A stretch of DNA of 64,000 nucleotides from IMG/VR virus record IMGVR_UViG_3300042453_002472, positions 62,001 through 126,000 of that record; one strand, given 5' to 3'. This document shows, piece after piece, positions 33,975-55,916 of this stretch; positions within the stretch are counted from its first letter, which is position 1; each line of letters opens with the position of its first letter. Both the position numbers and the translations under genes were made by a program. The notes beneath the pieces were generated by a model. It was not told where the DNA came from. It ran no database searches and saw nothing but the letters and a program-made list of their open reading frames with translations. This stretch comes from a virus.

Positions 33975-34400
33975 ATGCTAAAATTAAAACATTTATTAAA
34001 AGAAGATGAGCAGAAATGGAATCCTGCTGATTATAAGTCGCCAGCACAATTAGGTAAAACGACTGGATTAGATGCCGAAGCAGATCAAAGAATACAGGAT
34101 AGTTTTTTATCTAAACTAGAACAAAACTATTCTAGAATAAAACGAGCTCGTATTGATATGGCTGAGTTTAAAAATGATGTGATGGATTTGTTATCAATCT
34201 ATAAAGATAAAACGCCTGGCAGTGCGACTACTATGGATTTTATAAATGCATTTTTAGAATTATATCCATATTCAAAAACATATAGCGGATGGCAAGGAAC
34301 TTACCGAGATGTAAGAGATAATCTTAATCGTATGTTACAACACGCATATGCAATCCAATCCGGCGATACTAGCAGTTACGCATATCGATTTTCAAAATAA
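33975..34400 (+). CDS. Candidate internal head protein with capsid-targeting-like leader
   Basis: A 141-residue helical protein beginning MLKLKHLLKE then DEQKW. The leader of basic and hydrophobic residues ending in LLKE parallels T4 internal-protein leaders (MKTYQEFIAE) cleaved by gp21 after (I/L)XE. It has a late-type box although it lies among early-type replication genes. The mature part is helical with no known motif. It is followed 6 bases later by a gene with the fuller family leader. Internal-protein status is inference. Confidence 0.65.
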   Translation: MLKLKHLLKEDEQKWNPADYKSPAQLGKTTGLDAEADQRIQDSFLSKLEQNYSRIKRARIDMAEFKNDVMDLLSIYKDKTPGSATTMDFINAFLELYPYSKTYSGWQGTYRDVRDNLNRMLQHAYAIQSGDTSSYAYRFSK

Positions 34401-34406
34401 GTAATT

Positions 34407-34907
34407 ATGAAAAAACTAGAAAACATCCTAGCAGAAAATATGCGTCGTTTTAATACAAAAAATCTACACGAAGCTGATTTAAGTGATTTGGAAAATAAAT
34501 TAGGATTCGATGGTGCCAATCGAGATCCTCGAACAGGTAATCCAATGTTTGATCCTAAGAATTTAAAACTTCATATTAACCGAGTTGATTATGATACCAA
34601 CATTTCTGGTATTACATCTATGTATTTTCAAGGATCTGGAATTGATGATAAAAATACATTTCAAGATATTGTGAACGACATCAAACAAGATATTGAAAGT
34701 AAAAATGATCCAACTGGTGCATATGATCAAACCAGATTAGTATCCGACATTACATTTGACTGTGAACTTAAAGTTGGTACCGATACTATCGATTTGACAG
34801 TTACATATGATGAAGATGGTGATATTCAAAATGTAGAAATACAGGATGAAGATATTGCTACAAAATATGGAATAAGTGATTCTACGATTATGGATTATTT
34901 ATTTTAA
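34407..34907 (+). CDS. Candidate internal head protein, MKKLENILAE leader
   Basis: A 166-residue acidic protein. Residues 1-10 MKKLENILAE and 11-22 NMRRFNTKNLHE match the leaders of the genes at 48124 and 55479, with (I/L)XE sites after ILAE and LHE. After the leader it is a mixed, strand-rich domain (ISGITSMYFQGSG, DITFDCELKVGTDTIDLTVTYDEDGD) unlike the other family members, so the shared leader is attached to a different body. It is transcribed with 33975 from a late box. Confidence 0.68.
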   Translation: MKKLENILAENMRRFNTKNLHEADLSDLENKLGFDGANRDPRTGNPMFDPKNLKLHINRVDYDTNISGITSMYFQGSGIDDKNTFQDIVNDIKQDIESKNDPTGAYDQTRLVSDITFDCELKVGTDTIDLTVTYDEDGDIQNVEIQDEDIATKYGISDSTIMDYLF

Positions 34908-34934
34908 AAACAAAAAAAAACTTAACAAATTACT

Positions 34935-34962
34935 TTGATTTAACGATTTAATTACTTATAAT
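34935..34962 (+). promoter_or_regulatory. Sigma70-like promoter for the gp32-uvsX operon
   Basis: TTGATT (34935-34940), 16-bp spacer, TATAAT (34957-34962), about 50 nt before the gp32 ATG. This one gives a leader and AAGGA, unlike the leaderless class. Confidence 0.55.
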
Positions 34963-35011
34963 GTAATTAATATTTTATATTTTATTAACCAATTAAAAAA
35001 GGATTTAACCA

Positions 35012-35788
35012 ATGGGCTTAAATTTAGATGCCATAAAGGCAAAACTCAATCAGTTGAACAAAACTGATGAAAAGAAAAACAATTTGTGGAAACCTGAAGC
35101 AGGTAAAACAAGAATCCGTATCGTGCCATATGTGCACAGAAAAGACAATCCATTCTTAGAATTGTATTTTCATTACGACATTGGCAAAAGATCAATGTTA
35201 TCACCGATCTCATTCGGCAATGCAGATCCAATCGTAGAGTTTTCAGACAAACTAAAAAAAACTGGCGATAAGGATGAATGGATGATGGGTCGTAAAATTG
35301 AGCCTAAAATGAGAACTTATGTACCTGTTATCGTGCGCGGTAAAGAAGCAGAAGGTGTAAAGTTTTGGGGATTTGGTAAAACTATCTACGCAGAACTATT
35401 ATCAATTATCTCTGATCCAGACTATGGAGACATTACAGATTTAATGAATGGTCGTGATATTGATGTAGAATTTACTCCTGCAGAAGGTGGTGCATTTCCA
35501 AAAACTGCAATTCGAGTGAAACCAAACACACAGCCAGCAACAGAAGATAAAGCAATTGCTGAAAAGATTATGAATCAACCAGTAATTACTGACATATTTC
35601 CTGAACCAACTTATGAAGAGTTAGAAGTTGCATTAACAGAATGGATGAATCCTGAAAATGCAGATTCAGATGTAGCAGCTGATGAAGAAGAAGAGGCACA
35701 AGGCGTTTCAACACCAGCAAAAGCTGCAAAGCCAGTAGCAGGTAAAGTTGATGACGTAGCATCAGCATTCAATGATCTTTTTAATTAA
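35012..35788 (+). CDS. gp32: Single-stranded DNA-binding protein (gp32-like)
   Basis: Coats ssDNA in replication, recombination and repair. The N-terminal basic segment is followed by LWKPEAGKTRIRIVPYVHRKDNPFLELYFHYDIGKRSMLSP, typical of T4-like gp32, and the C-terminus is acidic (DVAADEEEEAQG) ending DVASAFNDLFN, as in gp32 tails that bind partner proteins. At 258 residues it is shorter than T4 gp32 (301). There is no cysteine in the protein, so the T4 zinc site is absent. First gene of an operon with uvsX and rnh. Confidence 0.92.
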   Translation: MGLNLDAIKAKLNQLNKTDEKKNNLWKPEAGKTRIRIVPYVHRKDNPFLELYFHYDIGKRSMLSPISFGNADPIVEFSDKLKKTGDKDEWMMGRKIEPKMRTYVPVIVRGKEAEGVKFWGFGKTIYAELLSIISDPDYGDITDLMNGRDIDVEFTPAEGGAFPKTAIRVKPNTQPATEDKAIAEKIMNQPVITDIFPEPTYEELEVALTEWMNPENADSDVAADEEEEAQGVSTPAKAAKPVAGKVDDVASAFNDLFN

Positions 35789-35801
35789 GAAGGAGTTATA
35801 A

Positions 35802-36965
35802 ATGGCAAAGAGTAAAAGCAAACTGGAACTGGAAGACTCATTAGCAAGTACATTAGCTGATAGCATTAACAAGCAATTTAAAGGGCAAGCTCTTAAAACA
35901 GCTTTCTTTTTAGAAGGAGATGCTGATTCACCAAGCAATGTAACAGAATGGATTTCATCTGGTTGTGATATGCTCGATTTAGCGATTTCAAACCGATCGA
36001 ACGGAGGATTCCCAGTAGGTCGGATAACTGAAGTTACCGGATTAGAAGCATCAGGTAAGTCTTTATTAGTATCTCATGTAGCTGCAGAAACACAGAAAAA
36101 AGGTGGATTAGCAGTTTATATTGATACAGAAGCAGCAACTAGTGCTGAATTTATGTCAGCTATTGGAATTGATTTGAAATCAATGTTATATGTTCCATTA
36201 GAAACAGTAGAAGAAATTTTTGAAACAATTGAAACTATTGTTGAACAGGTACGTAAATCAGATAAAGATCGTCTCGTTACTATTATTGTTGACTCTATTA
36301 TGGGTGCATCTACAAAAATAGAAATGGCTGCTGAATATGACAAAGATGGATATGCTACCAGTAAATCAATTATTCTATCAAAAGCAATGCGTAAGGTAAC
36401 TAACTGGATTGCACGAGAAAGAATTTGTTTGATTATGACTAATCAGTTACGAACTAAATTAGGGGTATCATTCGGCGATGCGTGGACAACATCGGGTGGT
36501 AAAGCGATTCCATTTCATGCATCTGTACGTCTTCGTCTTAAGAATACTGGAATGATTAAAGCCAAAGTTGAAGGCGTTGAACAAGTGGTAGGAAGTAAGA
36601 CTGAAGTACAAGTAGTGAAAAACAGAATGGGTCCTCCGCATCGAAAAATCAACTATGACATCTATTATGATAGTGGTATTGATAACTATGGTGGATGGCT
36701 TGAAACAATGAAAAAATACAATCTAGTAAAACAATCAGGAGCTCATTATACATTAGATGACACTGATATTGAAACTGGAGAAGTATTTGGAGAAATTAAA
36801 TTTCAATCAAAAACATTTGTAGATAAGGTAATCAATCAACCAGAGATTAAAGATCGATTGTATAAAAGAATATGCGATGCGTATATCTTTAAGTATCAAG
36901 CTGGTATCGATGGCGGTATTGATGACGTAATTATTACAGATGAGGTTATAGACGAAGAAGCTTAA
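35802..36965 (+). CDS. uvsX: Recombinase UvsX (RecA-like)
   Basis: Strand-exchange recombinase. Walker A is GLEASGKS at 80-87, Walker B region TIIVDSIMGAS, and the L1/L2 region has ICLIMTNQLRTKLG then TTSGGKAIPFHASVRLRL. At 387 residues it is near T4 UvsX (391). AAGGAG lies before the ATG. Works with gp32, next to it. The stop overlaps the rnh start by one base. Confidence 0.95.
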   Translation: MAKSKSKLELEDSLASTLADSINKQFKGQALKTAFFLEGDADSPSNVTEWISSGCDMLDLAISNRSNGGFPVGRITEVTGLEASGKSLLVSHVAAETQKKGGLAVYIDTEAATSAEFMSAIGIDLKSMLYVPLETVEEIFETIETIVEQVRKSDKDRLVTIIVDSIMGASTKIEMAAEYDKDGYATSKSIILSKAMRKVTNWIARERICLIMTNQLRTKLGVSFGDAWTTSGGKAIPFHASVRLRLKNTGMIKAKVEGVEQVVGSKTEVQVVKNRMGPPHRKINYDIYYDSGIDNYGGWLETMKKYNLVKQSGAHYTLDDTDIETGEVFGEIKFQSKTFVDKVINQPEIKDRLYKRICDAYIFKYQAGIDGGIDDVIITDEVIDEEA

Positions 36966-38023
36966 TGAACAGGTATCAACAGCTATTCAAACAGTTACAA
37001 CAAGAAAAGGAAAATAGTCCATCAAGTGTCAATGATCATATTATGGTGCTTGATGGGCTAAACACCTTTATTAGAGCGTTTGGAGCAACTCCATCTACAA
37101 ATGAAGATGGTGATCATATCGGAGGAATTACTGGATTTTTATTTTCAATAGGTAAAGTAGTTCGAGATTTTAAACCATCTCGGTTAGTTATCGTGTTTGA
37201 TGGTAGAGGCGGATCTGCTCGTCGCAGAAAGATTTACGGCGATTATAAAGGTAATCGAGCAAATAAAACACGTTTACGTAGACACGATCATCAACAATTT
37301 GCTACAATTGAAGATGAACAGGAAGCAATGCGTTGGCAATTTTCTCGATTAGTATCATATCTAGATAATTTACCAGTAACATTTATTTCAATTGATGGTA
37401 TCGAAGCAGATGATACGATTGCATATATTGCTGATATGTATCAAGGTATTTCTAAAAAAATTACCATAGTTTCAACGGATAGAGATTTTTATCAGTTAAT
37501 AAGTCCTACAATTCAAGTATGGTCGCCTATCAAAAAGAAAATGTATGACGAACAAGCATTATTAGATGAATTTGGAGTACATCCAAATAACTATGTTATT
37601 TATCGAACATTTACAGGCGACACCTCTGACAACATACCCGGGGTATCTGGAATAGGTCCAAAGACAATTATAAAAACATTACCCGAACTTGCTGATACTA
37701 CTGAGTTTACGTTAGATGCATTATTTAATAAATGCACTAATAATTTAAATGAATCAAAAACATATGGTAAAATACTAGAAAATCAGGATACTATTGATAA
37801 GAATTATCGTTTAATGAATATTAAATTATTAGATATTCCAGCTCAGAGTGCTACGGTAATTCGAGGTATATTAGATCAGCCGATTCCAATGATGAACAAA
37901 ATGGAATTTCAAAGATTATTCATGGAAGACAAAATGTGGTCAACTATGAAAAATTTACCAGATTGGTTAAATAATACATGGTTATCACTAAATGCATTTG
38001 CACAACAAACACATAAAAAATAA
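36965..38023 (+). CDS. rnh: RNase H / 5'-3' exonuclease (T4 rnh-like)
   Basis: Flap-type 5' nuclease that removes RNA primers. Acidic metal-site residues are visible in IMVLDGLNTFIRAFG, LVIVFDGRGGSARR, DGIEADDTIAYIAD, IVSTDRDFYQLI and FTGDTSDNIPGVSGIGPKT (the helix-hairpin-helix). 352 residues against 305 in T4. Starts on the last base of the uvsX TAA. Confidence 0.93.
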   Translation: MNRYQQLFKQLQQEKENSPSSVNDHIMVLDGLNTFIRAFGATPSTNEDGDHIGGITGFLFSIGKVVRDFKPSRLVIVFDGRGGSARRRKIYGDYKGNRANKTRLRRHDHQQFATIEDEQEAMRWQFSRLVSYLDNLPVTFISIDGIEADDTIAYIADMYQGISKKITIVSTDRDFYQLISPTIQVWSPIKKKMYDEQALLDEFGVHPNNYVIYRTFTGDTSDNIPGVSGIGPKTIIKTLPELADTTEFTLDALFNKCTNNLNESKTYGKILENQDTIDKNYRLMNIKLLDIPAQSATVIRGILDQPIPMMNKMEFQRLFMEDKMWSTMKNLPDWLNNTWLSLNAFAQQTHKK

Positions 38024-38024
38024 C

Positions 38025-38053
38025 TTGGAATTTATACATAACTATTATATAAT
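38025..38053 (+). promoter_or_regulatory. Leaderless promoter for gp41 helicase
   Basis: TTGGAA (38025-38030), exactly 17 bp, TATAAT (38048-38053), 6 nt, ATG. A start site 7 nt after the -10 would coincide with the ATG. Confidence 0.65.
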
Positions 38054-38059
38054 AAGTTT

Positions 38060-39427
38060 ATGACAGATAAACTATCGGAATATGGCTGGAGCTTTCAAGT
38101 AAAAGTTTTAGCAGCAATGTTTACCGACCGAATATTTTTACAACAAATTGCCGATATTATTCGCCCAGAGTATTTCGAATCAGATGCAAATAATTGGGTA
38201 TTAGAAACAGTTTTAGATCATTTTCAACAATATAAAACACCCCCAACAAAAGATGTTTTAAAAGTTCGATTAACTGCATTAAGTGAATCTGGTCCAGAAT
38301 CTATACTTAAAACTGCAATACTAGAACAACTTAAAGATGTGTTCCGATACATGGAATCAGATGATTTAAGTTTTGTCAAAGATGAAATACTTAATTTCTG
38401 TAAAAATCAGGAAATTAAACGGGCAATTATGGATTCGGTTAATTTGTTGCAACGTGGAAATTATGATGAAATAAAGTCAAAGATTGATACAGCAATGAAA
38501 GCTGGTGCTGATACTAATATTGGGTTAGAATATAAACTTAATATATCAGCTCGATACGCCGAAGCATCGCGTCATACAATTACAACCGGATGGGATGTTA
38601 TTGATGATTTAATGGACGGCGGATTAGCTCCAGGTGAATTAGGTGTAGTAATGGCACCAGCTGGTATTGGTAAATCATGGCTCTTAATTAACATTGGAGC
38701 TAATGCAGTAAAGGCAGGTCATACCGTAATACATTACACATTAGAACTTAATGAAAATTATGTAGGACAACGTTATGATTCGGTATTAACTGGTATTAAT
38801 GCACAGAGCTTAAAAAATCATCAAGACACAGTTGAAGATAAAATGAAAAGTTTACGCGGTGATTTGATTGTAAAATATTTTCCAACTAAATCAGTTGGCG
38901 TAATGGGATTAAAAGCTCATTTAGAAAAAACTATTATGCTAGGTAAAAAGCCAGATGTTGTAATTGTAGATTATGGTGATTTGTTAAAAATCAATACAAA
39001 AAAGGACAAACACGAGGCATTAGAAGAACTTTACGAGGAGTTACGAGGAATGGCAGGTGAGTATGATATTCCGGTTTGGACGGCATCACAAGCAGGTCGA
39101 AGTGCGTTAGAAGAAGATATTATTGAAGCAGATAAAATTGCATCATCATATGGAAAAGTGATGGTAGCTGACTTCTTGATGTCATTGTCTCGTAAGGTTG
39201 AAGATAAAATGTCAGGTACAGGTAGAGGTCACGTTATTAAGAATCGGTTCGGCCCAGATGGCATTACCTTGCCTAGTAAAATTAACACAAACAACGGCCA
39301 ATTTCAATTTTTTGAGCCACAAACAACACAAGGCAAACAGACCACACAAGTTATGAAAACAGGCGAAAATGTTATGAAGAAAAATTTAGCACAAAAATTC
39401 AAAGATTTGGGTGGAACTTTAGGATAA
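38060..39427 (+). CDS. gp41: Replicative DNA helicase (gp41, DnaB-like)
   Basis: Hexameric 5'-3' helicase. It has the Walker A APAGIGKS at 199-206, Walker B DVVIVDYGDLLKI, and DGGLAPGELGVVM before the P-loop, as in DnaB-like RecA folds. The N-terminal ~150 residues are the helical primase-contact domain. 455 residues, near T4 gp41 (475). No SD; the promoter suggests a leaderless mRNA. No gp61 primase gene is in the window. Confidence 0.93.
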   Translation: MTDKLSEYGWSFQVKVLAAMFTDRIFLQQIADIIRPEYFESDANNWVLETVLDHFQQYKTPPTKDVLKVRLTALSESGPESILKTAILEQLKDVFRYMESDDLSFVKDEILNFCKNQEIKRAIMDSVNLLQRGNYDEIKSKIDTAMKAGADTNIGLEYKLNISARYAEASRHTITTGWDVIDDLMDGGLAPGELGVVMAPAGIGKSWLLINIGANAVKAGHTVIHYTLELNENYVGQRYDSVLTGINAQSLKNHQDTVEDKMKSLRGDLIVKYFPTKSVGVMGLKAHLEKTIMLGKKPDVVIVDYGDLLKINTKKDKHEALEELYEELRGMAGEYDIPVWTASQAGRSALEEDIIEADKIASSYGKVMVADFLMSLSRKVEDKMSGTGRGHVIKNRFGPDGITLPSKINTNNGQFQFFEPQTTQGKQTTQVMKTGENVMKKNLAQKFKDLGGTLG

Positions 39428-39430
39428 AAC

Positions 39431-39445
39431 CATATTTATATAAAA
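39431..39445 (+). promoter_or_regulatory. Orphan late-type box after the helicase
   Basis: CATATTTATATAAAA directly followed by the hairpin at 39448-39476, with no gene between. Its function is unclear. Confidence 0.3.
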
Positions 39446-39447
39446 TG

Positions 39448-39476
39448 AGGTCCGGATAATATTCGGCCCTTTTTTT
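39448..39476 (+). terminator. Intrinsic terminator after gp41
   Basis: AGG-T-CCG and CGG-C-CCT pair with one T-C mismatch; a T7 tract follows. Weaker than the other terminators. Confidence 0.65.
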
Positions 39477-39519
39477 ATCTAATAAACATTTATATTTTTT
39501 AAATTAAAGAGATTACAAC

Positions 39520-41376: not shown

Positions 41377-41382
41377 TATTTA

Positions 41383-41395
41383 GATATTTATTAAT
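41383..41395 (+). promoter_or_regulatory. Late-type box immediately before CDS 41396
   Basis: GATATTTATTAAT followed at once by the ATG at 41396, so again no leader or SD. Confidence 0.4.
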
Positions 41396-42159
<764 letters not shown>

Positions 42160-42178
42160 ATAATTAATAAAACAAGTT

Positions 42179-42883
42179 ATGACAACGAAACAAAGAACAA
42201 ATTTAGAATTAGTGCATCCTGGCTTTGCAAATGGAGTTTCTATTCAGTTAGCAACAAAACAATCGATTGAAGGTCCAGATGCTAGATTGACTACAGAAGA
42301 AAAACAAGCTATTATCGATAAAGCTGCATATCATTATGGTCAATTCTTAACCGCATTAGGCGTAACATGGGAATCTGATCCAAACTCGGCTGATACACCT
42401 CGGCGAGTAGCAAAGGCATATGTAAATGACTTATGGGCCGGTCGATATGAACCAATGTCAGATATTACAGCATTTCCAAGTGATGGATACGATGGCATTG
42501 TGTTTGAAGGAGGTATTCCATTAACATCAATGTGTAGCCATCATCATCAAACTATTATGGGTCTAGTTCACGTTGCATATATTCCGGGTGAAAATAGCAA
42601 CGTTATTGGTTTAAGTAAATTGAATCGAGTAGTTGAGCACTTTGGCAGACGAGGTGCAATTCAAGAACAATTAACTGTTGCTATCCACCACGCAATTGAT
42701 GAACTTATCGAAAACAATAAAGGTGTAGCAGTAATGATTGAAGCAACTCATAACTGTGTGCAATGTCGAGGAGTTAAGCATGGTGGTGCTTCAATGAAAA
42801 CTGCGAAATTATCTGGTGCATTTTTAGAAGATGGCAACGCAAGATCAGAATTTTATCAATTTGTAAAAGGTTATAATAATTAA
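42179..42883 (+). CDS. folE: GTP cyclohydrolase I (FolE)
   Basis: First step of the 7-deazaguanine pathway, GTP to dihydroneopterin triphosphate. The Zn/active-site motifs are TSMCSHHHQT and later NCVQCRGVKHGG, with DTPRRVAKAYV and VIGLSKLNRVVEHFGRRGAIQEQL as family blocks. 234 residues against 222 in E. coli. It heads a run folE-queD-small-small-queE. Confidence 0.95.
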   Translation: MTTKQRTNLELVHPGFANGVSIQLATKQSIEGPDARLTTEEKQAIIDKAAYHYGQFLTALGVTWESDPNSADTPRRVAKAYVNDLWAGRYEPMSDITAFPSDGYDGIVFEGGIPLTSMCSHHHQTIMGLVHVAYIPGENSNVIGLSKLNRVVEHFGRRGAIQEQLTVAIHHAIDELIENNKGVAVMIEATHNCVQCRGVKHGGASMKTAKLSGAFLEDGNARSEFYQFVKGYNN

Positions 42884-42884
42884 T

Positions 42885-43349
42885 ATGGCACGTTACATTT
42901 CAACAAAATTATTTGATGGTTACTCAACTTGTTTCCGTCAATGGAAAGCAGAAGATACTCATTGTAAATTCTTACATGGATATGCTGTATCATTTAGAGT
43001 ATGGTTTGAAGGAGAATTAGATCATCGTAATTGGGTATGGGATTTTGGCGGTATGAAGCGTTCTAAAACTCAAATTGCAGGTATGTCTCCAAAAGATTAT
43101 TTTACATTTTTATTAGATCATACTACAATCGTTGCATTAGATGATCCATATTTAGATAAATTCAAACAAATGGATGAAGATGGTATTATTCAATTAAGAA
43201 TTTTACCAGCTACTGGATGTGAAAAATTTGCAGAACATTTATATTATGTAATAAATGCATTCTTAAAAGAAGAAACAGAAGGCCGAGTAAAAGCTATCAA
43301 AATAGAAGTATACGAACACGAACGAAATTCAGCAAGTTATGAACAATAA
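42885..43349 (+). CDS. queD: 6-carboxytetrahydropterin synthase (QueD)
   Basis: T-fold enzyme converting the FolE product to 6-carboxytetrahydropterin. FRQWKAEDTHCKFLHGYAVSF carries the catalytic Cys and a Zn-ligand HG(Y), then VWDFGGMK and LLDHTTIV, then EVYEHERNSASYE. 154 residues. It starts two bases after the folE stop. Confidence 0.9.
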   Translation: MARYISTKLFDGYSTCFRQWKAEDTHCKFLHGYAVSFRVWFEGELDHRNWVWDFGGMKRSKTQIAGMSPKDYFTFLLDHTTIVALDDPYLDKFKQMDEDGIIQLRILPATGCEKFAEHLYYVINAFLKEETEGRVKAIKIEVYEHERNSASYEQ

Positions 43350-43554
43350 TAAAGACCAAATGAAAGTAGAAGTTAATGAGATGGCAATAACTCAACAAAT
43401 TAAAATTGCTTTAGAAAACTCCAATCTAAGTGTTGTTGTTACACCAATTATGTTTGATCCTAACGAATTTATACCAGTACTAGGTGTGTTAGTAAAAAAC
43501 GAGGATTCTAGTTATACTAGAAAATATACAATAACGGTTAAACCAAATAACTAA
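43339..43554 (+). CDS. Hypothetical small protein
   Basis: A 71-residue protein with a beta-strand-rich C-terminal half (LSVVVTPIMFDPNEFIPVLGVLVKN). Start at 43339 overlaps queD by 11 bases; an ATG at 43360 is also possible. No family recognised; sits between queD and queE. Confidence 0.5.
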   Translation: MNNNKDQMKVEVNEMAITQQIKIALENSNLSVVVTPIMFDPNEFIPVLGVLVKNEDSSYTRKYTITVKPNN

Positions 43555-43557
43555 ACC

Positions 43558-43929
43558 ATGAAGAGTAATGATCAATATATGTCACTGTATGATTACAGTG
43601 GTAAAGCATCTCGAGAAAGTGGACTAGGTCAAAAAGTGTATGAAGCTGCAAAGTCAAAAAATATTCATGTTATTTATCAAGATCTACCACCAGACTTATC
43701 TAGACCAGAATATAATCGAGTAGCAACATATCCAAAATCATTTCTAGATGAATACTTTGGCAAAACTACACCCGGTGATACATTTGCTTCTGAATTAGCA
43801 CAGGCTGATTTGCGTTATTTACTTGAACGTTTATATTCATTAGAAAATAAGTTTGATGAATTAATTAAAAAATTAGATACCAATGTTACCAATAGTGTTG
43901 AGTCAATCGATGACGACCTACCATTTTAA
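43558..43929 (+). CDS. Small protein with SSB-tail-like DDDLPF C-terminus
   Basis: A 123-residue protein. The middle has a basic/aromatic domain, then a helix LRYLLERLYSLENKFDELIKKL, then SVESIDDDLPF at the very end. Bacterial SSB ends DDDIPF or, in many Bacteroidota, DDLPF, which is the docking tip for many replication and repair enzymes. The phage gp32 does not end this way. The protein could mimic or compete with host SSB. No N-terminal OB fold was seen. This function is inference. Confidence 0.6.
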   Translation: MKSNDQYMSLYDYSGKASRESGLGQKVYEAAKSKNIHVIYQDLPPDLSRPEYNRVATYPKSFLDEYFGKTTPGDTFASELAQADLRYLLERLYSLENKFDELIKKLDTNVTNSVESIDDDLPF

Positions 43930-43936
43930 GGAATTT

Positions 43937-44713
43937 ATGAAGCCAGGAAGAATAACAGACTACAATAAAACATTGCCAATCATAGAATTATATCGTTGTG
44001 TGCAATCAGAAGGAAGCCGATTTGGTAGACCAACAATCGCAGTACGCACTACCGGATGCACTCATCGATGCTATTTTGGTGAAGGTGGCTGGTGCGATAG
44101 CTGGTACAGTTCAATTCATCCAGAAAAAGGTACTTTTACATTCAATGATATTATTAAAATTTACGACGAAAATCCACATATTAAAGAAATGATGTTAACT
44201 GGAGGATCCCCGACAATGCATCCAGCACTAGTTAATGAATTGACACATTTTGCACATGAAAGAGATATTCTTATTACTATTGAAACTGAAGGTTCTCATT
44301 ATATTGAAACTGATTACCCTATTGGCCTCCTTTCTATTAGTCCTAAGTTTGCCAATAGCGTACCCGTTGTGGGCGTTGCTACACCGCAAGGGACGATTAC
44401 GGATGAAAAGATGGTTAAGCAACATAATAAATTCCGTCTCAATAGCGAAGCGATAGATAAAATGATTGCATATCACGCAGATTATCACTATAAACCAGTC
44501 TGGGATGGTACTGAAGAGAATCTACAAGAAATTGAATTGTTTAGGATTCAACATAATATTCCAAAGGATAAAACGTACATAATGCCTGCTGGTGATACTA
44601 GAGACGAATTGATTAAAATGTATCCGTTGGTATTTGAAATGTGTGCTAACCATGGTTATAACATGACAGGAAGAGACCATATCGTGGCATATGATACTAA
44701 AAGGGGAGTTTGA
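43937..44713 (+). CDS. queE: 7-carboxy-7-deazaguanine synthase (QueE), radical SAM
   Basis: Makes CDG from the QueD product. The N-terminus has the expected EGSRFGRPTIAVRTTGCTHRC; the cluster cysteines are Cys41, Cys45 and Cys53 (spacing CX3CX7C rather than the common CX3CX2C). MLTGGSPTMHP follows as the GGEP-like motif. 258 residues. The ATG at 43937, 8 bases after the previous stop, was chosen with AAGGAAT just upstream; an in-frame ATG further up lies inside the previous gene. Confidence 0.88.
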   Translation: MKPGRITDYNKTLPIIELYRCVQSEGSRFGRPTIAVRTTGCTHRCYFGEGGWCDSWYSSIHPEKGTFTFNDIIKIYDENPHIKEMMLTGGSPTMHPALVNELTHFAHERDILITIETEGSHYIETDYPIGLLSISPKFANSVPVVGVATPQGTITDEKMVKQHNKFRLNSEAIDKMIAYHADYHYKPVWDGTEENLQEIELFRIQHNIPKDKTYIMPAGDTRDELIKMYPLVFEMCANHGYNMTGRDHIVAYDTKRGV

Positions 44714-48075: not shown

Positions 48076-48088
48076 TTTTTTTTTTTGC

Positions 48089-48106
48089 ATATATTTATAT
48101 TAAAAT
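48089..48106 (+). promoter_or_regulatory. Late-type box before CDS 48124
   Basis: ATATATTTATATTAAAAT after a T-tract (48075-48086), 17 bp before the ATG, with AAAGGA between. Confidence 0.48.
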
Positions 48107-48123
48107 TATGTTAAAGGATACTA

Positions 48124-48510
48124 ATGTCAAATATTAAACTAACAGATTTGCTAGCAGAAAATATGCGTCGGTTTAAAACTAAAAATTTAAATGAAGAACA
48201 TCCTGGGATTTTATTTCCAGCTTCTAAAATGGCAATAGGAGCTGGAGGACTTTTGGCAGCTGCAGTTGCAACATATGCAAAAGTATTTTCTGGAAAAAGT
48301 GCAAAAGAGCGAGAACAAGCTCGTATGGTATTAAACATACAAAGCATGATTATAAAAGATACAGATCCAGATGAAATTCTTAAATATATGAAATCGATAG
48401 ATTCTACTATAGATGATGCAACTGGAATTGAAATTATGAAAGCATTAGGTCGACAATTAGGATTGTATGTAGATCCAGAAAATGAAGACGATTCTACTCC
48501 GTTAAGTTAA
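48124..48510 (+). CDS. Candidate internal head protein with membrane-like segment
   Basis: A 128-residue protein starting MSNIKLTDLLAE then NMRRFKTKNLNE, the fullest match to the family leader. (I/L)XE sites lie after DLLAE and KNLNE. After the second site comes a hydrophobic stretch KMAIGAGGLLAAAVATYAKVF that could cross or disturb a membrane, then an acidic helical tail ending DDSTPLS. Late-type box and SD. A membrane-active delivered effector is possible but unproven. Confidence 0.7.
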   Translation: MSNIKLTDLLAENMRRFKTKNLNEEHPGILFPASKMAIGAGGLLAAAVATYAKVFSGKSAKEREQARMVLNIQSMIIKDTDPDEILKYMKSIDSTIDDATGIEIMKALGRQLGLYVDPENEDDSTPLS

Positions 48511-48522
48511 ACTAAATATTTT

Positions 48523-48550
48523 AAGTGCAATTTAAACGTTGCACTTTTTT
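48523..48550 (+). terminator. Intrinsic terminator after CDS 48124
   Basis: AAGTGCAA pairs perfectly with TTGCACTT around an 8-nt loop, followed by a T6 tract and ACTG. Confidence 0.9.
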
Positions 48551-48563
48551 ACTGTTAAAACAT

Positions 48564-48592
48564 TTGGTTATTTTAATATTATTACATATAAT
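48564..48592 (+). promoter_or_regulatory. Sigma70-like promoter for CDS 48604
   Basis: TTGGTT (48564-48569), 17 bp, TATAAT (48587-48592), 11 nt to the ATG. Confidence 0.55.
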
Positions 48593-48603
48593 AAAAGAAA
48601 AAT

Positions 48604-49779: not shown

Positions 49780-49780
49780 C

Positions 49781-49809
49781 TTGGATAGTTTTAAAAAATT
49801 TATTATTAT
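49781..49809 (+). promoter_or_regulatory. Near-leaderless promoter for the GT-dpdA operon
   Basis: TTGGAT (49781-49786), 17 bp, TATTAT (49804-49809), 8 nt, ATG at 49818. Confidence 0.55.
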
Positions 49810-49817
49810 AAGTTATA

Positions 49818-50978
49818 ATGAGGAATTTATTTTATTTCGGTTTAGAACCACTTAAAGCTCGATACACATATCAGCTTTCAAAAGAATGGATGCCAGCCAC
49901 ATTCGAACCATATGTAAAAGCTGGAAAATTAAACTTTATAGATATTGAAGGCGAATTTGATCCTGATCAGCAAATTAAAGTTGGTGCAGTATTAGATGCT
50001 ATTGGTAGAGGTAAATTTAGTTTGACACAATGTCAAAATTTTCTTCAACGAATTTATAATGATGAAGTTAAATCTGGAGATATTATCTTTTTGCAAGATT
50101 ATTGGACTCCTGGTTTAGATGCAATTTGGTATGCATTGGATTTATATGGCATTGAAGTTAAAGTGTATGCAATGCTTCATGCACAATCTGTTGATGAATA
50201 TGATTTTACATATCCAATGGCAAAGTGGATGCGTAATTATGAATTAGGATTAGATAAACGAATGTCTGGCATCTTTGTCGGTAGCACTATTCATAGAGAA
50301 CAACTTCGAGCAGCTGGATTCACTGCACCAATTCATGTAGTTTCATTACCAATTCATAAACAAGCTACATTAGCAAAATTACCAAATATATCTGAACGAA
50401 AGAAAAATGTAGTAGTATATTCATCTCGTTTAGACAAAGAAAAGAATCCGTTTTTCATGTTAGATGTTGCAGAACAGTTTTTAGAACAACATACTATATG
50501 GGAATGGCATGTAACTACATCTGGTAAAGAATTTAGATCGATGCTTCCTGATGTAATTGATGCAATGAAAGCATTAGCTAAACGTCAACCTCGTTTTAAA
50601 TTGTTAAGTGGATTGTCAAAAGAAGAATATTACACTGAATTAGCTACATGTAAAATTCAGTTCAATTCAGCATTACAAGATTACGTGTCTTGGACAGTTA
50701 TTGAAGCAACGGCATTTGGTGCTGATATTGTATATCCTAATTTCAGATCTTTCCCTGAATTTATAGATTATGATCGTTTATACAAAGCATTTGATGTTAC
50801 GAGTGCATTACGATTATTACAGCATACAATTGAAACACAAAGAACACATTACAATATAGTTGATATTTCTGACTTAGGTCGGCAGTTAGAAGCTTATATT
50901 ATGGTTAATGATATAACTCAAGAACATAATATATGGCATGAAACAGCATATTGTAAACATTTAATACAAGGAAAATAA
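49818..50978 (+). CDS. GT-B glycosyltransferase coupled to dpdA
   Basis: A 386-residue GT4-like protein. The C-terminal half has NVVVYSSRLDKEKNPFFMLDVAEQF (a Rossmann donor site), LSGLSKEEYYTELATCKIQFNSALQDYVSWTVIEATAFGADIVYPN and DVTSALRLLQ. The TAATG junction at 50978 makes its translation depend on or coincide with dpdA. This raises the possibility that it adds a sugar to a modified base or to a pathway partner; protein or lipid targets remain possible. Confidence 0.75.
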   Translation: MRNLFYFGLEPLKARYTYQLSKEWMPATFEPYVKAGKLNFIDIEGEFDPDQQIKVGAVLDAIGRGKFSLTQCQNFLQRIYNDEVKSGDIIFLQDYWTPGLDAIWYALDLYGIEVKVYAMLHAQSVDEYDFTYPMAKWMRNYELGLDKRMSGIFVGSTIHREQLRAAGFTAPIHVVSLPIHKQATLAKLPNISERKKNVVVYSSRLDKEKNPFFMLDVAEQFLEQHTIWEWHVTTSGKEFRSMLPDVIDAMKALAKRQPRFKLLSGLSKEEYYTELATCKIQFNSALQDYVSWTVIEATAFGADIVYPNFRSFPEFIDYDRLYKAFDVTSALRLLQHTIETQRTHYNIVDISDLGRQLEAYIMVNDITQEHNIWHETAYCKHLIQGK

Positions 50979-52228
50979 TGAGTAAAAAGTTTATTTACTA
51001 TCCTTCATTATCAGCAGGATCAATGGTATCAGCATTCAAAAAGGATGCTAAGTTTGAAGATGGTACCACTATGCGATTTTTCGGGAAAGATTATCCAGAA
51101 GAATGGAGGCATCCATATTTTTTGATTACAGCAGGTCACCATTACAAGAAAATGGATTTTCGTCAACAGATTGGTCTAGATGATGATGTATTAGTATTTG
51201 GAGATTCAGGAGGATTCCAGATTGCTACTGGTGCATTGAAATGGGATAGCACACTTCGAGAAAAAATATTTCATTGGTTAGAAGCTAACAGCGATGTAGC
51301 AGCTAACTTAGATATTCCACCTCGAGTTACATTTGAAAATCGTTTTCAAGATTCGATGGATATTTCTTTTGATAACTTTAAATGGTTTGAAAAACATCAA
51401 TCAGGCAAGACAAAATTCTTAAATGTAATTCAGGGTACATATAACGAAGAATATAACACATGGTATCATAAATTTAAAGACTTTGACTTTAACGGATGGT
51501 GTATTGGAGGTCCAAAGCGATTAGTTGATTTTATGTATGTTATTGCATTAATGTTGCAAGAAAGAGAATTTGAAAAGCCTCATGTTCAATATATTCACTT
51601 GTTAGGTATTTCAAAAATATCAGATTTCTTTATTCTATCCACATTACAAAAGTTACTTAATGACTTAACTAATGGTCGTGTGCAATTATCGACAGATTCA
51701 TCGTCACCGGGTCAGTATCCAGTATATGGAACATATCTTCACTCAGGTAATTATAAGACACAGACATTTACAGAATTGTATTTCCCTAAGAATGCTGAAT
51801 ATCGTAGAAAGACACATATTAAGCAAGGTAAAGATTCGGTAGATATCGATAAGACAAAACATGTACCGTGTAGTATGGATTGTCCAGCATGTAAAGATTT
51901 TACGTATGAATATTTAGGCGGGCTGACTACAGATGGATTGGATCGATATTCACAAGAAGGTATGCCAAGAATGGTTGTGCATAATACACATTTGTATGTG
52001 AATATTGCAAAGGATATTGACAAAATGGTTGATAGTCATGTTGAATTGTTAGAAACAGCTATTCCAACGGATTTGTTTAATGTGATATTATCATTACATG
52101 ATATGTTTGCAGATCCAGAAAATGCAATGCATGTATATGCAAAATACAAAAAAACATATAAAAAATTCGGAGGGGATTCTATATCAACTACCGATGCAAA
52201 TAAGTTCGCAGAATTCTTTAAATTTTAA
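50978..52228 (+). CDS. dpdA: DNA 7-deazaguanine transglycosylase (DpdA), TGT-like
   Basis: A 416-residue relative of tRNA-guanine transglycosylase. DSGGFQIATG at 76-85, LNVIQGTY (substrate region), WCIGGPKRLVD (GG) and TDSSSPGQYP (a candidate nucleophile Asp) follow the TGT order, and the C-terminal zinc site is PCSMDCPACKD plus HNTHLY. Phage proteins of this type (DpdA) exchange guanine for preQ0 or a relative in DNA, which blocks restriction. The family has different subtypes and I cannot assign this one. Together with folE/queD/queE this marks a DNA-modifying phage. Confidence 0.85.
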   Translation: MSKKFIYYPSLSAGSMVSAFKKDAKFEDGTTMRFFGKDYPEEWRHPYFLITAGHHYKKMDFRQQIGLDDDVLVFGDSGGFQIATGALKWDSTLREKIFHWLEANSDVAANLDIPPRVTFENRFQDSMDISFDNFKWFEKHQSGKTKFLNVIQGTYNEEYNTWYHKFKDFDFNGWCIGGPKRLVDFMYVIALMLQEREFEKPHVQYIHLLGISKISDFFILSTLQKLLNDLTNGRVQLSTDSSSPGQYPVYGTYLHSGNYKTQTFTELYFPKNAEYRRKTHIKQGKDSVDIDKTKHVPCSMDCPACKDFTYEYLGGLTTDGLDRYSQEGMPRMVVHNTHLYVNIAKDIDKMVDSHVELLETAIPTDLFNVILSLHDMFADPENAMHVYAKYKKTYKKFGGDSISTTDANKFAEFFKF

Positions 52229-52237
52229 AAGGTAAAC

Positions 52238-52948
52238 ATGGAAAAAAGTAAATTACAATCATTTATTAATCGCTACTATTTAGCAGGAAATTGTGAAGCG
52301 GTTATTCTTAATGAAAATTCTACCGGTGTAGGTTGTAATCTAATCGATCAAGATCAAACCGTAGTAGGTAAAATTCAATGGAAAACTACACCATTTATGA
52401 ATGGATCGTTAGGTATTAATCATACCGGTGCATTGACAAAAATGCTTAGTGCCGTAGGAGAAAAAATTAATATTGACGTGCAAGAATCTGCAGGTAAAAA
52501 CTATGCAATGAAAATTTCAGAAGGTACCACAAAGTTAACCTTCATGTTAGCAGATACCACTGTAATTCCAGCAGTACCAACAATTAATGCAGAACCAGAT
52601 TATCAGGTTTCAATCGATGTTGATGATGAATTTATTAGTAAATTTATTAAAGCAAAAAATGCATTGCCAGATGCTAAGAATTTTGCAGTACAAGTTGTAA
52701 ATGGTAGTATAAAATTTATTATTAACTATACCACTATTAATGCAGATAACATTTCATTTGAAGTTGGTCCTACTAATATTACTAATATGGAACCTATCTG
52801 TTTTTCAGCAGATAAATTAAAAGAAATTCTTATCGCAAATAAAGGTGATTCTGGTAAACTTCATATTTCACCAGAAGGATTAGCAAGAATTGATTTTACC
52901 GGAACTGATTTTGAATCATCTTATTGGTTAGTACAATTGCAAAATTAA
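52238..52948 (+). CDS. gp45: Sliding clamp (gp45-like)
   Basis: Processivity clamp for gp43, also used by T4 late transcription. 236 residues (T4: 228), beta-rich without catalytic motifs. FINRYYLAGNCEAVILN, LGINHTGALTKMLSAV and FEVGPTNITNMEPICFSADKLKEIL match the clamp layout, with a C-terminal ESSYWLVQLQN strand. The AAAGGT ribosome site precedes it, and the clamp loader genes gp44 and gp62 follow shortly. Confidence 0.85.
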   Translation: MEKSKLQSFINRYYLAGNCEAVILNENSTGVGCNLIDQDQTVVGKIQWKTTPFMNGSLGINHTGALTKMLSAVGEKINIDVQESAGKNYAMKISEGTTKLTFMLADTTVIPAVPTINAEPDYQVSIDVDDEFISKFIKAKNALPDAKNFAVQVVNGSIKFIINYTTINADNISFEVGPTNITNMEPICFSADKLKEILIANKGDSGKLHISPEGLARIDFTGTDFESSYWLVQLQN

Positions 52949-52950
52949 TT

Positions 52951-53379
52951 ATGATAGTATCTGTAGTAAATCAGTCAAATAATGCACTACCTGCATACGA
53001 AACTCCGGGTAGTGCTGGTTTAGATATCCGATGTATTAATGAAGTCGCAATTGACTCAGGCGGCAGATGTTTAGTTGAAACTGGATTATTTGTAGAAGTT
53101 CCGCAAGGTTATGAATTGCAAATAAGACCAAGAAGTGGATTGGCACTAAAACATGGAATTACTGTGTTAAATTCACCGGGCACGATTGATTCAGATTATC
53201 GGGGAGAAATAAAAGTTATTTTGATTAATCATGGTCCGCACTCTATTATATTCAATCCAGGCGACCGAATAGCACAAATGGTTTTATGCAAAGTAGAACA
53301 GATACAATGGTTACCGGTAGCTGGATTAACTGGAACTAAACGAGGAGAAAAAGGATTCGGTTCTACCGGAGGAAAATAA
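52951..53379 (+). CDS. dut: dUTPase
   Basis: Hydrolyses dUTP to dUMP and keeps uracil out of DNA. All five motifs are seen: PGSAGLDI, RPRSGLALKHGI, NSPGTIDSDYRGEI, GDRIAQMVLCKV and RGEKGFGSTG. 142 residues. The ATG at 52951 follows the clamp stop directly; 52924 is inside the clamp gene. Confidence 0.95.
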   Translation: MIVSVVNQSNNALPAYETPGSAGLDIRCINEVAIDSGGRCLVETGLFVEVPQGYELQIRPRSGLALKHGITVLNSPGTIDSDYRGEIKVILINHGPHSIIFNPGDRIAQMVLCKVEQIQWLPVAGLTGTKRGEKGFGSTGGK

Positions 53380-53386
53380 TTATATT

Positions 53387-54313
53387 ATGTTTAATACACA
53401 AGAAAATACACTTTGGGTCGAATCATTTCGTCCCGACACATTAGAAGGATATATAGGTAATGAACATATCATTGAAAAAGTACGCATCTTTATTAATAAT
53501 GGTGATGTTCCTCACTTATTATTCTATGGTACCGCGGGTACTGGGAAGACCACGTTGGCAAAAATCATTGCCGGTAGTGTGGATGCCGATGTTATGTATA
53601 TAAATGCATCCGATGAAAACTCAGTAGATGCTGTACGGGATAAGATTAAACGTTATGCATCGACAGTAGGATTTCGACGATGGAAAATCATTATATTGGA
53701 TGAGGCTGATTATTTGACACCAAATGCTCAAGCAGCATTACGTAATTTAATGGAAACATATAGTAAAACAACCCGTTTTATTCTTACATGTAATTATGTA
53801 GAAAAGATTATTGATCCAATACAATCTCGTTGTCAAACATTTGCAATTACTCCTCCGAATAAAACAGATGTAGCAAAGCGGCTTGTGCAAGTATTAGAAG
53901 AAAAGCAAATTGAGTTTGATATTAAAGATGTTGCTGCAATAATTAATGCATCATATCCAGATATTCGTCGTGCAATTAATGCAGCACAAGCATCAGTTGT
54001 TAATAACACATTGCAACTAGATAAAGCAAGTGCTATACAAGCAAATTACATGACAGAAATATTAGATGTATTACGCAATTCTGCAGACAAGAAAGGTGCA
54101 TTCACTAAAATACGTCAAATTATTGCAGATAGCAAAGTAAGAGATTTTACGGCACTATACACATTTCTATATGACAATTTAGATGAATTCGCTCATGGAC
54201 ATGTAGCTCCATGCATTTTAATTATTGCAGAAGCTCAATACAAAGATGCATCTGTTGTAGACAAAGAAATCAACATAATGTCCATGTTTGTAAATATATT
54301 AGGAGAAATATGA
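53387..54313 (+). CDS. gp44: Clamp loader large subunit (gp44-like, RFC family)
   Basis: AAA+ ATPase that loads the clamp. Walker A YGTAGTGKTTLAK (48-55 core), Walker B ILDEADYLT (105-108 DEAD), and sensor/Arg motif IQSRCQTF. 308 residues against 319 in T4. GGAGG lies 14 bases before the ATG. ATGA overlap with the Zn-ribbon gene. Confidence 0.95.
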   Translation: MFNTQENTLWVESFRPDTLEGYIGNEHIIEKVRIFINNGDVPHLLFYGTAGTGKTTLAKIIAGSVDADVMYINASDENSVDAVRDKIKRYASTVGFRRWKIIILDEADYLTPNAQAALRNLMETYSKTTRFILTCNYVEKIIDPIQSRCQTFAITPPNKTDVAKRLVQVLEEKQIEFDIKDVAAIINASYPDIRRAINAAQASVVNNTLQLDKASAIQANYMTEILDVLRNSADKKGAFTKIRQIIADSKVRDFTALYTFLYDNLDEFAHGHVAPCILIIAEAQYKDASVVDKEINIMSMFVNILGEI

Positions 54314-54528
54314 GTAAATTAAATGTTAATATTGGCCCAAACGATATGCAGCCAATTCAATGCAAAGAATGTGATGGAATGTATTTTCGTCAAGTAATGG
54401 CAATTAACAAAGTATCAAAATTTCTAACAGGTGGGGATAAAGATACAATGGTTCCGGTTCCTGTGTTTCGATGTGATGATTGCGGGTCTATTCCAGAAGT
54501 GTTTCAACCCATTAAACTGAAAAAATAA
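54310..54528 (+). CDS. Zinc-ribbon small protein
   Basis: A 72-residue protein with CKEC...CDDC (two CXXC pairs) and FRQVMAINKVSKFLTGGDKD between them, typical of a Zn ribbon. The start overlaps gp44 stop by ATGA; an upstream in-frame ATG would be deep inside gp44. No known T4 counterpart was assigned. Confidence 0.72.
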   Translation: MSKLNVNIGPNDMQPIQCKECDGMYFRQVMAINKVSKFLTGGDKDTMVPVPVFRCDDCGSIPEVFQPIKLKK

Positions 54529-54740
54529 TGTCTAGCCCATACTATAAAGACGATGTAACAATTGTTTTTAAAACATCAGCTCGGAGCAATGCTAAAACCA
54601 AAATGAAAACATTGCGCAATAAAAGTATTGATGATGTGTTAGAACGTAAAATTCCCGGAATACCAGATACAGCAGTTATACTAGAAATGGGTATTGGTCC
54701 AAATTTCGAAAAACAATGGCGAACTAAATATAAACTATAA
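54528..54740 (+). CDS. Hypothetical small protein
   Basis: A 70-residue basic protein (MSSPYYKDDVTIVFKTSARS...), coupled to the Zn-ribbon gene by TAATG. No family recognised. Confidence 0.62.
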   Translation: MSSPYYKDDVTIVFKTSARSNAKTKMKTLRNKSIDDVLERKIPGIPDTAVILEMGIGPNFEKQWRTKYKL

Positions 54741-55193
54741 ATGGCAGAAGAAAAAAAGGGTGCAACTATCTTTGATTTTATCGAAGGCGTAACAAGCAAA
54801 AAGAAAGCATGGAATAAATGGAGTGAAACTGATCAAAAGGCATTTTCTCCATATATTGTTAATCGTTGGCTTTCTATGCGACAAGATTTAGTTGAGGTTA
54901 TTAATGAGTTACAGACATACACAATAGGGTTATTACGGCCACAAGAAACATATCGTCTTTATTACGAACTATTACCGCATAACAAGGCATTTGCTAAATA
55001 CATTAAAGGTAAAAAAGAAGATAAATTTTCCGATAAACTAATCTCTCAAGTTGCAGAGCACTACAAAGTAAGTCGTTCTGAAGCAACTGATTACGTGGAT
55101 TTGATGGATCAAACTAGTTGCACTCGTCTGCTAAATTTATATGGATATTCGGAGAAAGAAGTAAAAAACATGATGAAAGGAGTTAGAAAATGA
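54741..55193 (+). CDS. gp62: Clamp loader small subunit (gp62-like)
   Basis: Partner of gp44. 150 residues (T4: 187). IFDFIEGVTSKKKAW, SPYIVNRWLSMRQDLVEVINELQ and LMDQTSCTRLLNLYGY follow the gp62 pattern. The start abuts the previous stop. Less similar to T4 than the gp44 is. Confidence 0.78.
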   Translation: MAEEKKGATIFDFIEGVTSKKKAWNKWSETDQKAFSPYIVNRWLSMRQDLVEVINELQTYTIGLLRPQETYRLYYELLPHNKAFAKYIKGKKEDKFSDKLISQVAEHYKVSRSEATDYVDLMDQTSCTRLLNLYGYSEKEVKNMMKGVRK

Positions 55194-55435
55194 GTGTAAA
55201 CACGCAATCACATTACCGAGGTAAAGATAGCCTGTATAAATTCGCAGAAGATTGGGAACTTAATAGCTATGAATTTGATATTATTAAACGAATCGTACGT
55301 TGTCGTTACAAAGGATCATTTACCGAAGATTTAAATAAGACTAAAGATTTAATTGATATCTATTTAACAGAACAACAACATACACATACTCCAAAAATAA
55401 ATGTTATTGGATGTTCTTTGGATTTAACAAAATAG
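55190..55435 (+). CDS. DUF3310-like protein
   Basis: An 81-residue protein. SHYRGKDSLYKFAEDWELNSYEFDIIKRIVRCRYKGSFTEDLNKTKDLIDIYL follows the DUF3310 order (HY..., an N-terminal helix, KYI-R..KG-like, EDL.K). The family is common in phages and its role is unknown. Translated from an ATGA overlap with gp62. Confidence 0.62.
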   Translation: MSVNTQSHYRGKDSLYKFAEDWELNSYEFDIIKRIVRCRYKGSFTEDLNKTKDLIDIYLTEQQHTHTPKINVIGCSLDLTK

Positions 55436-55450
55436 TATTTTTTTTTTTGA

Positions 55451-55468
55451 TTATATTTATATTAAAAT
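55451..55468 (+). promoter_or_regulatory. Late-type box before CDS 55479
   Basis: TTATATTTATATTAAAAT after a T-tract (55438-55448), near-identical in layout to the 48089 box, with AGGA before the ATG. Confidence 0.48.
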
Positions 55469-55478
55469 TAGGAAATAT

Positions 55479-55916
55479 ATGATAAAACTAAAAAATATTC
55501 TAGCAGAAAATATGCGTCGTTTTAAAACTAAGAATTTAAACGAAGATGAAGATAAAGCATATAATGCACAACAAGATGCTATACGACTCAATAAAATTGC
55601 AAATCATTATTTAATGGAGCAAGAGACCATTAATTTTGATAAAAATTATTTTACTAATAAAAAACAAGGTCAAATTACTTTTGACGATTACGGGTTCCCA
55701 ACAGATGTTGATGGAGTTCAAATAACAGATTATGAAACTCAGTGGCAACCAAACTTCACCACAAAAAATTTTGGTGGGAGAGGAACTAAAGGTGGTAAAT
55801 ATAATTGGGTTTATGGTGAAACTGTTTCAACGGGTGTTAACGCTCCAGGGCAACAAAAACCAGGTATCTCAATTAAAGACGAGAATGAACAAGAGGTTGG
55901 TACATTTATTTTTTAA
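55479..55916 (+). CDS. Candidate internal head protein, MIKLKNILAE leader
   Basis: A 145-residue protein with MIKLKNILAE, then NMRRFKTKNLNE, then an unrelated acidic/Asn-rich body (QQDAIRLNKIANHYLMEQETI, FDDYGFPTDVDGVQITDYE, GRGTKGGKYNWVYGETVSTG). Two (I/L)XE sites flank the conserved second segment. Only the leader is shared with 34407 and 48124, which is what one expects if the leader is a targeting signal. Late box, no clear role for the body. Confidence 0.7.
   Translation: MIKLKNILAENMRRFKTKNLNEDEDKAYNAQQDAIRLNKIANHYLMEQETINFDKNYFTNKKQGQITFDDYGFPTDVDGVQITDYETQWQPNFTTKNFGGRGTKGGKYNWVYGETVSTGVNAPGQQKPGISIKDENEQEVGTFIF

Follow-up and report, generated by a model that had tools for sequence, protein, structure and literature searches.

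Exchangeable N-terminal leaders, probable capsid-targeting propeptides, on unrelated proteins of a phage near the Far-T4 group

The stretch of DNA analysed here, the window, comprises 64,000 nucleotides, bases 62001-126000 of the 159,977-base virus record IMGVR_UViG_3300042453_002472 (the home record), and carries five genes whose products share an N-terminal leader peptide on otherwise unrelated bodies. Comparative evidence strongly supports, with a probability of about 0.85, the reading that these leaders are T4-like capsid-targeting propeptides cut by the S77 prohead protease encoded in the same window; they would work like the capsid-targeting sequence (CTS) of T4, a functional likeness put forward with no claim of descent. 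According to published work, the T4 internal proteins have only a capsid-targeting leader in common, are cut by gp21 and injected, and Ip1-3 inhibit different GmrSD restriction enzymes (PMC3012670, PMC9026906, PMC12373910, PMC5694885). Under the proposed mechanism, leader proteins would bind the prohead core late in infection through their N-terminal 10-25 residues and become enclosed in the prohead, where the S77 protease would cut after (L/I)-x-E, once in the short leader form and at one or both sites in the long form. Once released, the body would remain alongside the DNA and reach the next host when this is injected. The leader would act as an exchangeable module, so that different genes could become cargo by acquiring it.

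An earlier note, made from the letters of the window, had proposed a capsid-targeting-like leader on packaged and injected proteins. The leader stands, on the evidence of the S77 protease, the L-x-E boundary, the exchange of leaders between bodies, the late-type boxes and the lack of leader-like cellular matches, all read from sequence, and from these we infer core binding, cleavage, packaging and injection. The balance also tips slightly towards a broader picture, in which Far-T4 phages run an exchangeable cargo-tag system with interchangeable leader families, about 15 candidate injected effectors per genome, including a conserved mini protein kinase, that would act before phage gene expression, an exchange of tags at the Glu where the protease cuts, and cargo turnover in fixed hotspots. 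If this is true, a short peptide pattern would find injected proteins directly from metagenomes, the T4 capsid-targeting idea would grow from a few proteins to cover a large exchangeable set, and what a phage delivers along with its DNA would become testable, with the kinase-fold cargo as the first candidate. The phage group concerned is reported to be common in aquatic samples, and we know of no effector described in Far-T4 phages. The home record is nearest to this group: its capsid protein is 57.5% identical to that of Flavobacterium phage Immuto, whose laboratory host is LMO8, and 54.0% to that of Microcystis phage Mel-JY01, the nearest annotated phages, and 38.0% to that of Rhodothermus phage RM378, the reference Far-T4 phage (PMC4360716). 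Bacteroidetes are the predicted hosts of marine Far-T4 phages (PMC7198788).

The leader genes and their distribution

The five leaders listed in the earlier note are all present in open reading frames (ORFs) on the plus strand of the window, each ending in (I/L)-x-E. Leader gene 1 (33975..34400) encodes 141 aa, with the short leader MLKLKHLLKE and a body of 131 aa that has homologs elsewhere with a long leader; leader gene 2 (34407..34907) encodes 166 aa, with the long leader MKKLENILAENMRRFNTKNLHE and a body of 144 aa. Leader gene 3 (41396..41920; 174 aa) has a short leader of 10 residues, kept in both of the two distinct homologs among the fetched loci, and leader genes 4 (48124..48510; 128 aa) and 5 (55479..55916; 145 aa) have the long leaders MSNIKLTDLLAENMRRFKTKNLNE and MIKLKNILAENMRRFKTKNLNE, respectively. 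The bodies are indeed unrelated: an all-against-all blastp of the five gave at best E 0.13, on a 12-residue alignment, and with a cut-off of E 0.001, residues 4-29 are the only part of the gene 4 protein that matches other places in its own genome. In an AF2 model of the gene 2 protein the body is mostly folded and the leader has pLDDT below 50; a fold search with this model returned no significant match (best E 0.07).

Seventeen leader genes, 5 long and 12 short, were hand-picked from pattern matches in the approximately 160-kb home record, whose gene list is a greedy, uncurated call of 214 ORFs. The long leaders lie at genome positions 7161, 26128-27642 (minus strand), 96407, 110124 and 117479, and the short ones include 14408, 15028, 15548, 17602 and 45633, together with five at 146118-151945. 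Beyond the five of the window there are thus two further long leaders (7161 and the minus-strand gene) and ten further short ones, absent from the earlier note because only one window was seen there. The long form reads ..xILAENMxRFxTKNLxE, with a second L-x-E 12 residues past the first; short leaders have 10 residues and long ones about 18-25. In the home record, the motif L-x-x-[ILFVM]-[ILFMV]-x-E starts within the first 14 residues at 15 of 2,996 positions, versus 20 of 47,191 elsewhere (odds ratio 11.9, p 4e-10), and the same N-terminal rate test gave 3.8-, 7.4- and 7.3-fold enrichment in three related records and 7.4-fold in Immuto. Read by eye from match lists, about 15 leader genes can be counted in the related 160-kb record G004, and 8-9 in either of two fragments of about 100 kb.

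The leader-1 DNA pattern, encoding E-N-M-x-R-F-x-x-K-N-L, was run on IMG/VR contigs, extending the search to other phage genomes as the earlier note had suggested, and it matched at least 118 stretches. Among the matches listed, 138 of 141 lie 5-13 codons past a possible start (ATG, GTG or TTG), representing 121 distinct proteins; of the remaining three, one runs off a contig end and two are second copies inside one protein family (L016, L088), so that internal leaders, which would speak against the proposal if found in unrelated proteins, number 2 of 141 and lie in ORFs that also start with a leader. About one chance match is expected in this viral scan, by the author's own estimate. Run against 84,980 bacterial and archaeal genomes, the pattern returned 23 matches, of which none was leader-like (having L at -2, E at +12 and a preceding ATG at a distance of 5-13 codons); the nearest, L432, has Met 8 residues before and E at +12 and lacks L at -2. 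Searching 50,697 phage records by tblastn with two of the leader peptides yielded nothing.

A second long leader, leader 2, was noticed by reading the N-termini of Immuto, where MENFDLKKFLVENKLTTNSKILKE and near forms stand on four proteins; leaders of the MENFDLKKFLVEN type are those of gp003, gp092, gp077 and gp076, with predicted cuts after FLVE or the second L-x-E. Its pattern matched 111 stretches, and 109 of 118 matches are N-terminal, a count that includes a few evident chance matches (L169, L190, L235, L259, L266). A third leader type is marked by QFKRMQxLAG close to the start; of its 15 matches, 14 lie 2-8 codons past an ATG and one is cut by a contig end. Among PMC open-licence papers, the literature search found none with any of six short leader strings and no title or abstract on such leaders in Far-T4 phages.

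Several observations stand beside these counts. The minus-strand gene at 26128-27642 (also L003:7128-8642) encodes a 495-aa long-leader protein with its own late-type box, in contrast to 204 of 214 called ORFs on the plus strand. At L016:2700-3700 (minus strand), and also in L088, a 233-aa ORF contains two long leaders 127 codons apart, and the first half of this ORF is similar to a short-leader gene that stands alone in L125 (59% over 83 aa); by its sequence it looks like two fused cargo genes with an internal cut site. Three larger home proteins (21023, 46184 and 140738) have a different N-terminal style (IINTVLQTITEQ, YIIKLVLQEQ and VLTEQLIQEQ, respectively) and possibly carry further cleavable leaders. 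Shared N-terminal 5-mers were rejected as a general leader detector for being too noisy, linking 40 genes in the home record, 44 in G004, 46 in Immuto, 31 in Mel-JY01, 9 in RM378 and 30 in T4 (150 kb), with 0-8 in internal windows.

Module boundary, exchange and the S77 protease

The end of the module was located with 138 of the 141 leader-1 and 105 of the 118 leader-2 matches, grouped into body clusters by single linkage, so that large clusters may be chained. Across 63 leader-1 body clusters, L(-2) is kept in 61 and E(+12) in 55, neither position being fixed by the search, and information drops from 3.4 to 1.3 to 0.7 bits directly after E(+12). Across 35 leader-2 clusters, L(-2) is kept in 33 and E(+12) in 30, and conservation falls likewise; two L-x-E sites with a 12-residue spacing are therefore common to both families. 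In the home record, the DNA of the five long-leader copies is 0.69-0.90 identical; leader residues are conserved and synonymous codons vary, which argues that selection acts on the peptide, and an element at the DNA or RNA level was rejected on this ground.

Homologous bodies were also found behind different leaders. The gene 2 body (34407) has a long leader at home and a short one in its G004 homolog (68% identical), while the gene 1 body (33975) has a short leader at home and long leaders in other phages (44-51% identity); in L121, a body behind leader 1 is similar, for about 40-65 residues, to 15 leader-2 proteins. An automatic search for junction pairs, defined as homologous bodies with different leader types and at least 50% identity over at least 40 aa, gave 67 distinct pairs, in 10 of which the alignment runs from residue 1 after both leaders and in 11 of which it starts within three residues. 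Five displayed families (DDFKSPNTPEHR, NEESDKRFAEY, Q[ST]QPP, GKFYKGS and the 33975 family) show homology from residue 1 or 2 past the last Glu of the leader.

The S77 (gp21-type) protease domain lies at 3604-4092 of the window (PF03420, E 9.1e-34), within a gp21-like protein of 209 aa (3553..4182, plus strand) that is the presumed cutter. S77 was present in 6 of 20 leader-1 contigs, 19 of 33 leader-2 contigs (Immuto itself included) and 1 of 19 random contigs, with a pooled p of 8e-4 and many of the leader contigs being fragments. These checks covered 20 of 118 leader-1, 33 of 111 leader-2 and 19 of 35 random stretches: the leader samples were longer contigs chosen by eye, with evident leader-2 chance matches and at least one long true contig (L221) omitted, and the random sample was all random contigs of at least 15 kb. 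Conversely, among 20 S77-bearing records, picked for long contigs from 80 protease loci, the short pattern, which also catches some long leaders, was found in 15 (57 copies) and the long pattern in 7 (25 copies), precisely the 7 records of at least 64 kb. Neither pattern occurred in the 19 random contigs, and the backwards-pattern control gave 0 of 39; on these controls and the cellular genomes, a chance origin was rejected.

The major capsid protein (gp23-like; 6499..8148, plus strand) contains a conserved QLLENQARQLVKE|A stretch, with E at residue 57, that resembles the leaders (L-x-E-N...x-E); in the capsid alignment of relatives, E57 is present in 40 of 40 sequences, the home one included, and E48 in 39. 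A candidate site in the home scaffold, LLKE, was rejected, as it is not kept in Mel-JY01 or Immuto.

Likeness to known systems and weighing of alternatives

Among the closest parallels are IPI-III and Alt of T4, which likewise have an N-terminal propeptide of 10-19 residues removed by gp21, unrelated bodies, an S77 protease and variable loci (PMC9026906, PMC3012670, PMC12373910). The T4 N-termini read MKTYQEFIAE in IPII and IPIII and MAKINELLRES in gp24. Unlike the T4 leaders, those of the home record have no similarity to MKTYQEFIAE beyond the L/I-x-E ending, are listed on more genes (17), and include a long form whose two sites are spaced by 12 residues. The gp24 propeptide MAKINELLRE, of 10-20 residues (PMC5694885), is like the short form and ends in LLRE, although gp24 is a capsid vertex protein encoded by a single gene with no leader family. 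Among the inner head proteins gp53 and gp54 of SPN3US and gp93 of phiKZ, two diverged proteins begin with the same 15 residues, which include two candidate sites for the protease (PMC5694885); theirs are long propeptides on paralogs with A-x-E or S-x-E motifs, whereas the home propeptides are short and stand on bodies with no detectable similarity.

Several results weigh against a capsid-targeting role. The N-terminal enrichment is just 2.1-fold in Mel-JY01 and absent in RM378, a distant Far-T4 phage with an annotated gp21 protease (2 N-terminal matches, 0.9-fold). Taken alone, the leader-1 contigs differ from the random ones in S77 with p 0.09 (6 of 20 vs 1 of 19). The S77-bearing records are close kin (84-100% protease identity), some with identical leader DNA (G075, G076, G078), so that the co-occurrence of leader and S77 is confounded by descent and is not an independent test. 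Of the junction pairs, which are non-independent, 56 of 67 start outside three residues after both leaders, and no recognised leader was found in 10 of 14 homologs of the 151181 body or 8 of 19 of the 17602 body, where the matches are partly to shared domains. T4 internal proteins are said to be basic, whereas the 17 home bodies are not so on average (mean -0.006 charge per residue, net charges from -19 to +35). The literature searches turned up no mass spectrometry of virions from this clade, and a term search of PMC7077304 gave neither Immuto nor mass spectrometry.

Against this background, the leader might be a sorting signal for another destination, such as the membrane, the tail, a phage compartment or a host chaperone, with the L-x-E ending incidental. 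The lysozyme domain on one leader protein could suit a tail or envelope role; this alternative is nonetheless judged unlikely, because conservation stops at L-x-E in two leader families of unlike sequence, homologous bodies join at or next to that Glu in the five displayed families, and a comparable L-x-E-N...x-E stretch is present in the capsid protein. It is very improbable that the shared N-termini are functionless products of recent duplication, or recombination debris serving as a handle or start region. The DNA identity of the five home copies and the turnover at the locus beside the ssb gene would agree with such an origin, but synonymous codons vary where residues hold, equal spacing is kept in two leader families, and a kinase-like cargo, at genome position 45633, keeps (I/L)-x-E within its first 10 residues in each of the 20 loci fetched, some of which are identical, while the rest of its leader has diverged.

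A further alternative accepts packaging and sees in the cargo chiefly helpers of structure or scaffolding, not injected effectors. In its favour, T4 IPIII affects head assembly (PMC9026906), and a portion of the 17602 body is seen again in a protein that has the N-terminus of one encoded directly ahead of the Immuto protease. It is considered doubtful in view of a cargo locus that is variable, being empty in 15 of 55 intervals, and of named cargo that includes a kinase fold and a lysozyme domain. The capsid-targeting reading, with delivery of the freed bodies, is retained as the best explanation.

Cargo bodies, late-type boxes and the variable locus

Three of the 17 home leader proteins exceed the Pfam cut-off: 147942 (phage lysozyme domain, E 2e-7; an endolysin family in PHROGs), 151181 (DUF5872, E 1e-11) and 15028 (DUF6934, E 1e-6). 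The PHROGs matches of the home leader proteins are otherwise to families of unknown function. Representatives from other phages match almost nothing: for 95 of 97 representative leader proteins, one chance match and one stretch with N having been dropped, the family searches yielded no more than isolated weak matches, to two families in Pfam, one in PHROGs, one in NCBIfam and four in PADLOC (three Cas names and one homing endonuclease). The anti-defence role suggested in the earlier note found no backing in these databases, since the bodies tested match no known anti-defence family in Pfam, PHROGs, NCBIfam or PADLOC; such a role is kept here only by analogy with T4 Ip1-3 (PMC12373910). A vRNAP-domain match (E 1.9e-4) was not used, as it did not recur in ten large proteins tested. 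The lysozyme domain (147942-148826; also L007:3042-3926) stands behind the short leader MIHLKSILSE, and relatives in G004 and G011 also have a leader; a capsid-targeted lysozyme would be odd.

The 45633 family is present in 22 of 32 records searched and in 10 of 10 that were selected by protease, and has an invariant K50. Its AF2 model (pLDDT 88.8) has residues 1-9 disordered, and the fold starts past the predicted cut; in Foldseek, the best match is CK2alpha (E 5e-5, prob 1.00, TM-score 0.48 by query). By sequence there was no Pfam kinase match, and the best PDB kinase had E 0.6. Judged from the model, this conserved cargo has a protein-kinase fold. Directly after the leader, several otherwise different leader-1 bodies (among them L056, L078 and L096) contain DQNNNG[YF]PD, presumably similar to a calcium-binding loop, which may be a second shared module.

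As the earlier note had observed, a late box directly precedes four of the five window genes. An upstream scan placed ATATTTATA at 33948..33956 before gene 1, at 48091..48099 before gene 4 and at 55453..55461 before gene 5, and ATATTTAT at 41384..41391 before gene 3, all on the plus strand, with the ATATTTAT box starting 12-33 nt before the start codon in the four cases. Gene 2 has no box of its own and starts 6 nt after gene 1 ends; the earlier note places the two in one unit. Upstream of leader-1 genes, ATATTTAT occurs in 91 of 120 regions, versus a mean of 4.4 in simple shuffles, and in the home record a late-type box precedes 10 of 17 leader genes, versus 38 of 197 others (p 8e-4). The boxed non-leader ORFs include 82192 and 84776, which we take, by gene order, to be tail sheath and tail tube. 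By their boxes, the leader genes look late. A second box type, CTTATATTTAaAGTATAAA, differs from ATATTTATA, stands upstream of home genes 4975, 25484, 152367 and 153647, and is probably another promoter class.

Genes 1 and 2 occupy a variable cargo locus (33949..35011, plus strand) bounded by a conserved gene (33562-33948) on one side and an ssb-like gene (35012-35788) on the other. Relatives were chosen by ssb, because only 4 of 33 protease-selected records contain it; 80 were selected by ssb only, to avoid bias, and 16 duplicate intervals and 9 loci with no upstream gene were set aside. Of the 55 distinct intervals that run from the upstream gene to ssb, 40 contain 1-3 leader genes and the rest none. 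By pattern, 51 of the 58 ORFs counted there have a leader, a figure in which at least one short call (L486) looks like chance. The seven leader-less ORFs comprise four similar to degenerate leader genes and three that look like HNH proteins (L014, L496, L503, before ssb). The latter start MNYExIYxQLIxRAxTR...YKERHHI, which we take to be HNH-like, and are possibly homing endonucleases in the cargo hotspot.

Elsewhere in the window, at 42179-44713 and 50978-52228, lie genes resembling those for GTP cyclohydrolase, QueD, QueE and DpdA; Immuto has genes so annotated, and the set suggests 7-deazaguanine DNA modification.

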